Of a DNA stretch of 64,000 bases, positions 1 to 42,186 are shown piece after piece. The position numbers and the translations under genes are program-made. Within the stretch, counting starts at the first letter, position 1. Every line of letters starts with the position of its first letter. This DNA comes from Cellulomonas sp. WB94 (GTDB taxonomy: Bacteria > Actinomycetota > Actinomycetes > Actinomycetales > Cellulomonadaceae): NCBI RefSeq assembly GCF_003115775.1, contig NZ_QEES01000005.1, forward strand, positions 186,001 through 250,000, in the 5' to 3' direction. The notes beneath the pieces are model-generated. The model made no database searches. It was not told the DNA's origin and was given only the letters and a program-made list of their open reading frames with translations.

Positions 1-207
1 CAATCGGACCCCTGGAAGCACAGTCCCGGGACCTCGGCGAACCGGCGTGCTGGGAGTGCTACTCCCCACCTGGCGCTCAAGGGACCAACGGCCCGATTTG
101 TCCGAATCCTAAGTGCCGGCACCATCGGTCGCGTCGCGCGTCCAACAGTGGAAGTCTGGCTGTCAGGACGTGAGGCGACTGGTGCGATGGCTGAGTCTGC
201 GCGTTGT
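1..207. other. No gene recognised at the left edge
   Basis: No reading frame in this stretch has a ribosome binding site together with a recognisable product on either strand. It may hold the promoter of the membrane protein gene that follows, but I see no convincing -35/-10 pair. Confidence 0.4.
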
Positions 208-11131: not shown

Positions 11132-11610
11132 GTCGGCGCGACGGCTGCGGCCCGCGTTGCCCGTCAAGCTCACTCGCGAACCTCGACGCTGTGCCGGACT
11201 GGCGACGCGGCGTTGCGTTGGACGTGGGGCATTCGTGCCACGCGCGAAAGGGCCGTGACCGGAGGACCGCCCGGACGCGAAGAAGCAATCCCCGCCAGGC
11301 TCACCGGAGGCCGTCCAGACGAACCATCGAAAGCGCGGTCAGTAGTGCCCCGTCACCAGCAGGTCGGGCTGATGGCCGGAGCTCGGGATCCGCGCTGACG
11401 CTGCGCACGACGGGGTGGTCTCTCCCCCGAGTGGTGACGCCGACGCACACAATTGTCGCCGGGTTGCCGCACGCCAGGGACGACCGGGACCTATGACCCT
11501 TCGCACAGTCCTCGCGCCAGCGGGACGATTCAGGTGCCGCCCTCGGGGCGTGACGCGATGGGCGGGTAGGAGAACAAGCGAAGCGGTTTCCCACCGAAGG
11601 AAGCGCCGAG
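11132..11610. other. 479-base gap without a recognised gene
   Basis: Small open frames occur on both strands, but none has a credible ribosome binding site with a recognisable product. I see no terminator with a T tract after the deacetylase gene and no clear promoter for the DUF6326 gene. Confidence 0.45.
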
Positions 11611-12108
11611 ATGAACCCTCAGAACTATGCCGCCCGCAGTGCCCGACCAGAAGAGCAGACCTCCGGGACGACGACGACCAGGCGGTACCGAGACGTCCCC
11701 GTCGATGTCAAGCTCGTTCTTTGTGCGCTGTGGATCGCGATGCTGTTCGTGTTCGCCTACGTCGACATCTTCGGGTTCTATCGCGCTGACGTTCTCAACG
11801 CAGCGCTGGACGGCAAGGTGGCGACCACGGGATTCACGATCGACCAGACATTCCTGAGCCTCACCCTGGTCTACATCCTGATCGCCGCTCTGATGGTGGT
11901 CCTGTCGCTCGTTCTCCCACCACGCGTCAACCGGATCGTCAACATCGTCGTCAGCCTCGTCTACATCGTCACCATCATCGGGTCGGCCGTCGGCGAGACG
12001 TGGATCTACTACTTCCTCGGAAGCATCGTTGAAGTGATGCTCCTCGCCGCCGTCGCCCGGACCGCCTGGACGTGGCCGGCACCTCAGATCGCACCCGCGC
12101 TGCCATAG
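11611..12108 (+). CDS. DUF6326 family membrane protein
   Basis: 165 residues. A polar 30-residue N-terminus precedes four hydrophobic segments: LVLCALWIAMLFVFAYVDIF, LSLTLVYILIAALMVVLSLV, NIVVSLVYIVTIIGSAVG, and the last before AWTWP. The conserved VPVDVKL, YVDIFGFYRADV and GETWIYYF pattern matches my memory of DUF6326 proteins, whose function is unknown. It lies alone between two surface-protein genes on the same strand. Confidence 0.8.
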   Translation: MNPQNYAARSARPEEQTSGTTTTRRYRDVPVDVKLVLCALWIAMLFVFAYVDIFGFYRADVLNAALDGKVATTGFTIDQTFLSLTLVYILIAALMVVLSLVLPPRVNRIVNIVVSLVYIVTIIGSAVGETWIYYFLGSIVEVMLLAAVARTAWTWPAPQIAPALP

Positions 12109-36835: not shown

Positions 36836-39109
36836 CTACTCGCGGCCCGCGGGCGTCCGTACGGTGATCGACTGGGACAGCAGCACGTTGTTCGACGCGT
36901 TGCCGACGTACACCGTGTACTCGCCGTCAACCGTTGTCCACGTGTCGGCCGCAGCGTCCCAGACGCTCAGCGGATGGTTCGCTGCGGACGGGTCGATCGT
37001 CACGGTGACCCTCTTCTTCTCCCCGGGATCGAGCGTGACCTTCTCGAATCCGACCAGCCGCTTGGGCGGCTCGTTCGCTGCGGCGGGCAGGCCGAGGTAG
37101 ACCTGCCCGACCTCCGCACCCGTCACCTGGCTGGTGTTGGTGATGGTGAACTGCACCTTGATCGGGTGGGTGCCGTCGAGCGTCCTGGGCGTCGCCTCCA
37201 GCTTGGAGAGCTCGAAGCTCGAGTACGACAACCCGTAACCGAAGGCGAACGTCGGCGCCACGTCGTTGGCGTCGTACCAGCGGTAGCCCATCTCGAGGCC
37301 TTCGCTGTAGGTGGCCGTCAGCGGCAGCGGACCGGCACCGTCCGGGTCGATCCCCGGCCACTGCGCGACCGTGGCGTTGGCGGCCTCCCGCTCCTGGGTC
37401 GGGAACGTGATCGGCAGCTTGCCCGACGGGTTCCTGATCCCGAACAGCAGGTCGGCGACGATGTTCCCGTCCTCCTGCGCGGGGTACCAGGCCTCGAGGA
37501 CGGCCGGGACACTGTCGAGCCACGGCAGCAGGACGGGCCCGCCGTTCTTCAGCACGACGACCGTGCGGGGGTTGGCGGCGACGACCGCGGCGACGAGCGC
37601 GTTCTGGTCCACACCGTCCGTGACCGGAAGGGCGAGCGTCGTGCGGTCCACACCCTCACGGGAGATGTCACCGACCATGACGACGGCGACGTCCGATGCA
37701 GCGGCGAGCGCGGCAGCGGCCGCGATGTCCGTGGCGTCGTCGTACGTCACCGACGCCGTCGACCCGAGCGTCGCGAGCGCGTTCTTCAGGCCTTGCTCGG
37801 GCGTCACCGTGTAGGGCGACGTGACCACGATGGTGTTCGACGGACCCTGCGAGTTGAACTTCGCCTGGCCGGCGAAGGTCCGCGGGCCGATCAGGGCCAC
37901 CGAGTCCAGCGACCCGGCGTCGAGCGGCAGAGCGCTGTTCGCGTTCTTGAGCAGCACGCTGCCCTGCTCGCCGATCTCCCTGACCCGCTCGCCGTTGGTG
38001 GCGAAGTCGATCGGGGTCAGCGAGCTGATCGGGTCGTCGAACTGGCCCAGCTCGAACATCACCGTGAACCGGCGGTCGAGCTGCTGGTCGATGTCCGCGA
38101 CCTGGAGCGTTCCCGCGTCGAGCGCGGCGTGGATGAGCTCCGGGGTGAACCAGCGCGGGCTGGCGAACTCCAGGTCGAGGCCGGCCTTGATCGCGGCGGC
38201 TGTGCTGTGCGTCGCTCCACGGTCGGACATGACGTAGCCCGTGAAGCCGAGGTCGTCGCGCAGCCAGTCGGTCAGGAGCTCGGGGTTCTCGCAGGCGAAG
38301 ACGCCGTTGAGGTGCGGGTACGAGCACATGACCGAGGCCAGGTTGGCCTCCTGGATCGTCATCTCGAACGGCAGCAGGTACAGCTCGTGCATGGTGGCGT
38401 CGTCGACGACGGTGTCCATCGTGTTGCGGCCGGTCTCCTGCTCGTTCGCGGCGAAGTGCTTGGCCACGGACTGGACGCCCCAGCTCTGCACCGCGTTCAC
38501 CTGGGCCACGGCCATGGTTCCGGCCAGGTAGGGGTCCTCTCCGAAGTACTCGAAGTTGCGGCCGGCGTTCGCGATCCGGCCGAGGTTGATGCCCGGCGTC
38601 AGGAGCACGTTGTGCGCGCTGGCGCGGGTCTCCTCTCCGATGATGTTGCCCCACGCGGTCGAGACCGCGGCGTCCCACGAGGAAGCCACCGTGAGCGCAC
38701 TGGTGAGGCCTGTCGATGTCGGTGCGACCGCGCAGTCGCCGCCACCGAACGGACCGTTGGTCATCCGCAGCGTGGGGATCGCCAGCTCGGGGATGCCCTC
38801 GACGTGCCGGCCCCCGGCCGAGAAGTCGCAGCCGGGGATCGTGGTGTTGGCGACGGGCTTCATCGCGATCTGCTGGATCTTCTGGTCGAGCGTCATCGCG
38901 CTGATCAGCAGCTCCGCCCGCTGTGCGGGAGCGAGCGCTGGGTCCATCCAGGGCAGACCTGTCCACGCCGATGCTGCTGGGCCCCGGGACTGGTGTGCGG
39001 CGGATCCCGCCTGGCCGGGCGCCGCTGTCGCGGCCCCCGTGGCGACGATCGTGAGCGGGACGGTGACGGCGACGATGGCCAGCCACGTCCGACGAGAGCG
39101 AGTTCTCAA
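36836..39109 (-). CDS. Secreted GH3 beta-glucosidase
   Basis: 757 residues from TTG 39109. This start is chosen because AAGGAGA lies 8 bases before it and it opens directly into a signal peptide (RTRSRRTWLAIVAVTVPLTI, then ATGAATAAP). GH3 barrel motifs include KHFAANEQETGRN and the nucleophile Asp296 in VMSDRGATHS; Arg replaces the usual Trp after Asp. The alpha/beta sandwich (VALIGPRTFAGQ) and fibronectin-III-like C-terminus (FGYGLSYSSFELSKL) follow. It would release glucose or related sugars from oligosaccharides outside the cell. Likely regulated from the shared region with the divergent alcohol dehydrogenase. Confidence 0.92.
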   Translation of the reverse strand: MRTRSRRTWLAIVAVTVPLTIVATGAATAAPGQAGSAAHQSRGPAASAWTGLPWMDPALAPAQRAELLISAMTLDQKIQQIAMKPVANTTIPGCDFSAGGRHVEGIPELAIPTLRMTNGPFGGGDCAVAPTSTGLTSALTVASSWDAAVSTAWGNIIGEETRASAHNVLLTPGINLGRIANAGRNFEYFGEDPYLAGTMAVAQVNAVQSWGVQSVAKHFAANEQETGRNTMDTVVDDATMHELYLLPFEMTIQEANLASVMCSYPHLNGVFACENPELLTDWLRDDLGFTGYVMSDRGATHSTAAAIKAGLDLEFASPRWFTPELIHAALDAGTLQVADIDQQLDRRFTVMFELGQFDDPISSLTPIDFATNGERVREIGEQGSVLLKNANSALPLDAGSLDSVALIGPRTFAGQAKFNSQGPSNTIVVTSPYTVTPEQGLKNALATLGSTASVTYDDATDIAAAAALAAASDVAVVMVGDISREGVDRTTLALPVTDGVDQNALVAAVVAANPRTVVVLKNGGPVLLPWLDSVPAVLEAWYPAQEDGNIVADLLFGIRNPSGKLPITFPTQEREAANATVAQWPGIDPDGAGPLPLTATYSEGLEMGYRWYDANDVAPTFAFGYGLSYSSFELSKLEATPRTLDGTHPIKVQFTITNTSQVTGAEVGQVYLGLPAAANEPPKRLVGFEKVTLDPGEKKRVTVTIDPSAANHPLSVWDAAADTWTTVDGEYTVYVGNASNNVLLSQSITVRTPAGRE

Positions 39110-39199
39110 GGTCCATTCTCCTTCGAGTGGATCCCCGGGGCGCACTCCCTTGTGGGCCCCGGCGGTGACCCGATTCAGTCGTCGGAGGGCATTCCCGGT

Positions 39200-39232
39200 C
39201 AACGCGTTGCCACATGTTGCCTCGGCCGAGGC
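39200..39232. promoter_or_regulatory. Two perfect palindromes upstream of secreted GH3
   Basis: CAACGCGTTG (39200-39209) and GCCTCGGCCGAGGC (39219-39232) are perfect palindromes about 90-120 bases before the GH3 TTG start. The first resembles LacI-family operators with a central CG. A LacI-type repressor is a guess; no such gene is in the window. Confidence 0.4.
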
Positions 39233-39251
39233 GGGACCGTAGCCCCAGGTG

Positions 39252-39290
39252 GTAGGACCAAGGTCACGTGTTCCCGTAGGACCTTGGTCA
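39252..39290 (+). promoter_or_regulatory. Tandem 15-base boxes upstream of alcohol dehydrogenase
   Basis: GTAGGACCAAGGTCA (39252-39266) and GTAGGACCTTGGTCA (39276-39290) differ only by AA versus TT and are spaced 24 bases apart. Each core GACC(A/T)(A/T)GGTC is nearly self-complementary, and the two cores together form an inverted repeat. They resemble degenerate DevR/DosR-type boxes of hypoxia and dormancy regulons. They end about 60 bases before the alcohol dehydrogenase start. Confidence 0.6.
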
Positions 39291-39351
39291 TTGACTGGGG
39301 GGATCGCCGTCAGAGTCGACGGCGGCACATCACTCCTGAAGGAGTTCCACC

Positions 39352-40564: not shown

Positions 40565-42186
<1,622 letters not shown>

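Follow-up and report, generated by a model that had tools for sequence, protein, structure and literature searches.

The alcohol dehydrogenase locus and its boxes

The stretch of DNA analysed here, called the window throughout, spans 64,000 nucleotides (G000:C5:186001-250000; 71% GC) of a 3.87 Mb genome in 7 contigs. A gene for a zinc-dependent alcohol dehydrogenase (ADH) was located by its open reading frame and Pfam domains, in agreement with a preliminary description that had placed two short boxes in front of such a gene (Table 1). The nearest solved chain for the encoded protein was 5yln (E 1e-128), and the NCBIfam models that it matched all scored below their cut-offs. A family-3 glycoside hydrolase gene is divergent from it and could share the boxes; the start used for this gene is likely correct, judged from the signal-peptide-like N terminus of the predicted protein. 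Genes for an ammonium transporter and a P-II protein lie 3' of ADH on the same strand (window 40565-42186).

Table 1. Features of the ADH region (window coordinates) and of the devR-devS region (coordinates of locus L126)
Feature	Coordinates	Strand	Basis and remarks
Zinc-dependent alcohol dehydrogenase (ADH), 351 aa	39352..40407	+	Open reading frame; Pfam ADH_N and ADH_zinc_N
Family-3 glycoside hydrolase, divergent from ADH	36836..39109	-	Pfam Glyco_hydro_3 domains; probable start
Box 1, GTAGGACCAAGGTCA	39252..39266	+	Exact match; matrix score 17.66, window's best
Box 2, GTAGGACCTTGGTCA, gene-proximal	39276..39290	+	Exact match; matrix score 16.49, window's second best
Third, weaker box, CGGGACCGTAGCCCCA	39232..39247	+	Matrix score 9.86, ninth in window
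TTGACT, possible -35 element, abuts box 2	39291..39296	+	Sequence only
DevR/DosR response regulator	L126:8020-8700	convergent to DevS-like kinase	Receiver and LuxR-type HTH domains
DevS/DosT-like kinase, 571 aa	L126:8772-10487		Two GAF domains, HisKA_3 and HATPase

The two 15-mers were found where the preliminary description had put them, 24 nt apart from start to start, and nowhere else in the window as exact matches. They are direct repeats, identical at 13 of 15 bases. The further claim that together they form an inverted repeat held for a 10-bp core, in which GACCAAGGTC and GACCTTGGTC are mutual reverse complements, but not for the outer bases, which are repeated in direct orientation only. 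We also found a third box, missing from that description, whose register is that of the boxes near -121 of ADH homologues. Relative to the ADH start, the 16-bp matrix windows of the three boxes begin at -120, -99 and -75, with centres 21 and 24 nt apart, and box 2 ends 61 nt before the start codon. A scan for sigma-70 promoters and terminators gave no match, so that no complete promoter was seen beside box 2, though TTGACT abuts it.

To judge whether the boxes exceed chance, the 15-mer was counted loosely. With up to three mismatches it occurred 5 times in the window against an expectation of 2.15, and as many as 5 were reached in 9 of 100 shuffles; this excess was unremarkable and the count was dropped as support. 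A 16-bp matrix was then trained on 13 sites in other parts of the genome, none of them at ADH; these sites had been hand-picked among pattern hits and so are biased to plausible targets. Two positions in the real window scored at least 16, versus a mean of 0.06 in 200 shuffled windows. When the intergenic region 39116-39351 was shuffled 20,000 times, 10 shuffles reached 17.66, none contained two positions at 16.48 or above, and none contained three at 9.86 or above, as the real region does. Further intergenic sites were seen at window 80-95 (score 12.8) and 11485-11500 (11.7), each about 117 nt before a gene (at 204 and at 11611, respectively) for a membrane protein whose function is not known.

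Related boxes elsewhere in the genome

In the genome, the pattern GGACCWWGGTCM with 0 mismatches gave 24 strand-wise matches at 15 places, versus 16 strand-wise matches for the reversed control, and full palindromes of the form GGACCWWGGTCC accounted for 9 of the 15 places. Eight of these nine were intergenic according to a simple gene caller, versus 2 of 8 control palindromes CCTGGWWCCAGG (Fisher p 0.015). By the same gene caller, the two ADH boxes and the sites L005 and L006 fell within open frames that were called too long, and L002 fell within a gene, and the intergenic count was therefore restricted to the nine full palindromes; the site L062 (locus L125) was intergenic by gene calling. 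Allowing one mismatch in GGACCWWGGTCA gave 118 genome matches versus 72 for the control, whereas the wider GGGACCWWSGNCCC gave 113 versus 98, no clear excess, and was not taken as support.

The preliminary description had named the lack of other copies in the genome as a finding that would speak against its reading; copies were in fact present before several genes. The anaerobic ribonucleotide reductase gene nrdD is preceded by GGGACCTTGGTCCC, and AGGACCTTGGTCCC lies upstream of an operon for an amino-acid transporter, agmatine deiminase, putrescine carbamoyltransferase and carbamate kinase. The cydA box, GGGACTAAGGTCCC, begins 109 nt upstream of its gene; cydA itself was identified below NCBIfam cut-offs, cydB by Pfam, and cydD and cydC were named from sequence. 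Good boxes were also found before pntA (identified below cut-off), before gap and the citrate synthase gene, and before genes for an ArsP-type permease, for a universal stress protein with two domains, and for a sulfide-quinone reductase accompanied by a DsrE-like gene. A weaker site lies upstream of a 2-oxoacid oxidoreductase (L063), and the boxes in L069, L070 and L072 had no evident oxygen-related target. Universal stress protein genes as a target class were set aside, with a good upstream box at one (L132) of six. The boxed sulfide-quinone reductase (L073:5180-6448, G000:C7) scored above the NCBIfam cut-off for a selenoprotein subtype of type III; despite this match, its frame stays open when read with the standard code.

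A DevR-DevS pair in the same genome

A DevR/DosR-type response regulator and a DevS/DosT-like kinase are encoded in this genome (Table 1). The best solved relative of the regulator was M. tuberculosis DevR (3c3w, E 1.1e-49), and alignment to 3c3w revealed that all three residues at the core of DNA binding by DosR are kept, namely K179, K182 and N183 (PMC5999986). The best solved relatives of the kinase were the heme-binding GAF-A domains of DevS (E 3.8e-28). Hand counting on the GAF-A alignment placed His and Tyr in the candidate heme GAF domain at the positions of His149, the heme ligand of DevS, and Tyr171, the distal residue that contacts oxygen (PMC4082495). The kinase gene lies directly 3' of cydABDC on the same strand (L126:8772-16655, G000:C2), with devR convergent and the box before cydA.

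Sites at ADH homologues

We fetched 76 loci homologous to ADH (30 + 46) and scanned 59 upstream regions (L030-L058 and L180-L209). The best site reached a shuffle p of 0.05 or less in 25 of the 59, the window's gene included, where about 3 were expected, and these sites clustered mostly near -99 and -121. Tandem sites 21-22 nt apart were present in L031, L032, L035 and L036, one of the L031 pair being weak, and GGGACCTTCGGCCC was found upstream of the homologues L035 and L038. Micrococcales MAGs L180-L183, which are the nearest relatives whose records bear a name, had boxes at -89 to -91, for example TGGGACTTAGGTCCTA; Micrococcales MAGs carry the window's ADH at 75-78% identity. The other 34 of the 59 upstream regions were without a significant site, including those of the DevS-bearing hosts G013, G012, G033 and G022, and scanning of four homologues from Corynebacterium and two from Mucilaginibacter gave no significant site.

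The ADH gene is patchy in its distribution, since six further genomes sampled from the window's genus had no close ADH (best E 1.8e-64 to 2.3e-45, own gene 3e-236), although all six have DevS. It is possible that the gene was gained by transfer or repeatedly lost. The ADH boxes did not separate hosts with DevS from hosts without it, as most of the homologue hosts have DevS; they were discarded as a discriminator, and cydA was used for the test instead.

Boxes at cydA and nrdD among relatives

A DevS match at E of 1e-30 or less, partial in some cases, was present in 127 of 150 surveyed genomes of the family. From this survey we drew 28 genomes, 7 without a DevS match and 21 with a near-full-length DevS, and found cydA in all 28. 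With a matrix of 11 sites from which the cydA and nrdD sites had been left out, a cydA box was detected in 20 of the 21 genomes with DevS (scores 12.7 to 21.2) versus none of the 7 without it (best 7.6); this count omits L254 (score 8.7), where G033 has a second copy of cydA. The Fisher p of 7e-6 for this association ignores kinship, and the seven DevS-less genomes come from only two genera, so that the comparison is confounded. The exception, G005, has DevRS and no box at cydA. A DevR orthologue of 79-99% identity was present in the 21 genomes with DevS, and the best match in the other 7 reached 48%.

The gene nrdD was present in 18 of the 28 genomes; a fragment, L272, was omitted from the count. 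A box preceded nrdD in 15 of 16 scored genomes with DevS (12 at first reach and 3 with a longer upstream reach), and the matrix scan found none at L265. The single DevS-less genome with nrdD had a best matrix score of 9.8.

When Rex-like palindromes were sought, allowing up to 3 substitutions, they were found at cydA in all four genomes of a DevS-less genus, g24 (L245-L248; for example TTGTGAACATGTTCACAA, at -103 to -119), where the box is absent. This suggests that the box and the Rex-like site are alternative systems. The exchange is best described as a tendency, because such a palindrome occurred at cydA in 0 of 2 genomes read of genus g11 and in 3 of 19 genomes read that have DevS.

Interpretation of the boxes

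Together these data make it very probable that the ADH boxes are operators for a DevR/DosR-type response regulator that would activate ADH at low oxygen through DevS and DevR, and in this actinobacterium such a switch apparently governs genes that serve an oxygen-free life. The preliminary description had compared the boxes with DevR/DosR-type sites; that reading gained support from the DevR/DosR orthologue and DevS-like GAF kinase of the genome and from the cydA box, which tracks DevRS in relatives. The match to the mycobacterial core consensus is 11 of 14 for the third box and only 10 and 9 of 14 for boxes 1 and 2, with the outer TT..AA unmatched; it is the regulator and the comparative pattern, more than resemblance by itself, on which the DosR-type case is built. 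Counting against this reading are the 34 upstream regions of ADH homologues without a significant site, the missing cydA box of G005, the wide pattern without genome excess, the boxes in L069, L070 and L072, and the lack of a sigma-70 match beside box 2.

In the proposed mechanism, we infer that a drop in oxygen would be the signal, sensed by the heme-GAF kinase DevS through its heme and passed on by phosphorylation of DevR. Dimers of phosphorylated DevR would bind the boxes side by side and cooperatively, the distances of 21 and 24 nt between centres corresponding to about two helical turns. At the gene-proximal box, which would lie at the -35 region, phosphorylated DevR may recruit RNA polymerase, and its predicted effect on ADH transcription would be activation rather than repression. 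The enzyme could reoxidise NAD(P)H in fermentation, so that reducing power leaves as alcohol, with the direction and cofactor of the reaction being those that we infer for it.

Other explanations were weighed against this. The boxes might bind another response regulator of the NarL/FixJ type that is encoded in this genome and answers to a different signal. Related regulators of this type can bind similar palindromes, and the genome encodes nine HisKA_3 kinases, several of which adjoin a response-regulator gene; nevertheless we regard this as improbable, since the cydA box tracks orthologues of DevS and DevR among the relatives tested, the DevS-like kinase stands in line with the boxed cyd genes, and the sequence fits DosR/OsdR sites. 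Still less probable is that the boxes belong to a redox regulator outside the NarL group, of Rex, CRP/FNR or LacI type. Proteins of these kinds also control redox and anaerobiosis genes such as those found with boxes. The Rex operator, however, is a palindrome TTGTGAA-N4-TTCACAA and a CRP-type site has the form TGTGA..TCACA, and the ADH boxes by their sequence have neither form. The Rex-like palindromes at cydA of genus g24, standing where the box is absent, likewise speak for two separate systems.

The explanation that we consider least credible is that the boxes are chance repeats without function. The loose 15-mer count in the window, which is not significant alone, and the wide pattern without genome excess would agree with chance, but the matrix rank, the shuffles, the intergenic bias and the sites at ADH homologues all argue against it.

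We tentatively propose, as a possible reading that we do not yet favour, that in this actinobacterial family DevRS acts less on dormancy than as the chief switch of anaerobic growth and fermentation, with direct activation of cytochrome bd, anaerobic ribonucleotide reductase, agmatine use, transhydrogenase and ADH, with DevS in line with cydABDC, and that a lineage without DevRS gave cydA to a Rex-type repressor. The boxes extend a regulon known mostly from dormancy in tuberculosis to other actinobacteria with genes for anaerobic life, in which its targets and oxygen response would be readily testable. The box and the Rex-like site at cydA are a possible example of regulator replacement at a single operon, and the comparison sheds light on the relation that may exist between a switch for dormancy and one for fermentation.

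Comparison with known systems

Titles and the beginnings of abstracts gave no evident report on a DevR-type regulator in Cellulomonas, Micrococcales or Arthrobacter, or with cydAB, which is not a claim that none exists. In Streptomyces, OsdR is a functional orthologue of DevR, and EMSA demonstrated its binding to predicted sites, the SCO5978/SCO5979 region among them, for which CGGGACCTTCGGCCCT is listed; its predicted targets include SCO0200-SCO0199, an operon for a universal stress protein and an alcohol dehydrogenase (PMC5069765). OsdR-OsdK of Streptomyces coelicolor resembles the system described here in its DevR-type regulator and in the layout of sites such as CGGGACCTTCGGCCCT (SCO5979) and AGGGACCTTCGGCCCC (SCO0167, SCO0216). 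The consensus there is AGGGCCGATCGGCCCT with the half site GGCCG, whereas the boxes of our genome have GGACC, a variant that also occurs among the sites of the OsdR table (PMC5069765). In addition, osdR and osdK form one operon with clustered targets, whereas devR and devS are convergent in our genome, devS follows the cyd genes, and the targets are scattered.

In mycobacteria, the DosR/DevR consensus is the palindrome GGGACT-WW-AGTCCC with the half site GGACT (PMC2275270), and in M. tuberculosis several close boxes are bound cooperatively by DevR, the proximal box lying over the -35 element (PMC3029386, PMC7018068). The likeness covers the half-site spacing of TTSGGGACTWWAGTCCCSAA (PMC2275270), which is shared by the ADH boxes, the packing of one to four boxes per promoter (three at ADH), boxes common to divergent genes, as they may be here, and regulator and sensor families with key residues kept. 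The mycobacterial system differs in its half site, GGACT as against GGACC here, in the TT..AA flanks, which are lacking here, and in the gene arrangement, devR and devS of our genome not sharing an operon. The boxes of our genome, moreover, favour genes for cytochrome bd, anaerobic ribonucleotide reductase, agmatine use and fermentation. In summary, the ADH boxes extend a known system, as expected, this kind of site being already known from OsdR and DosR; less expected are the targets in fermentation and anaerobic growth, the position of devS in line with cydABDC, and, in one genus without DevS, the Rex-like palindrome that replaces the box at cydA.
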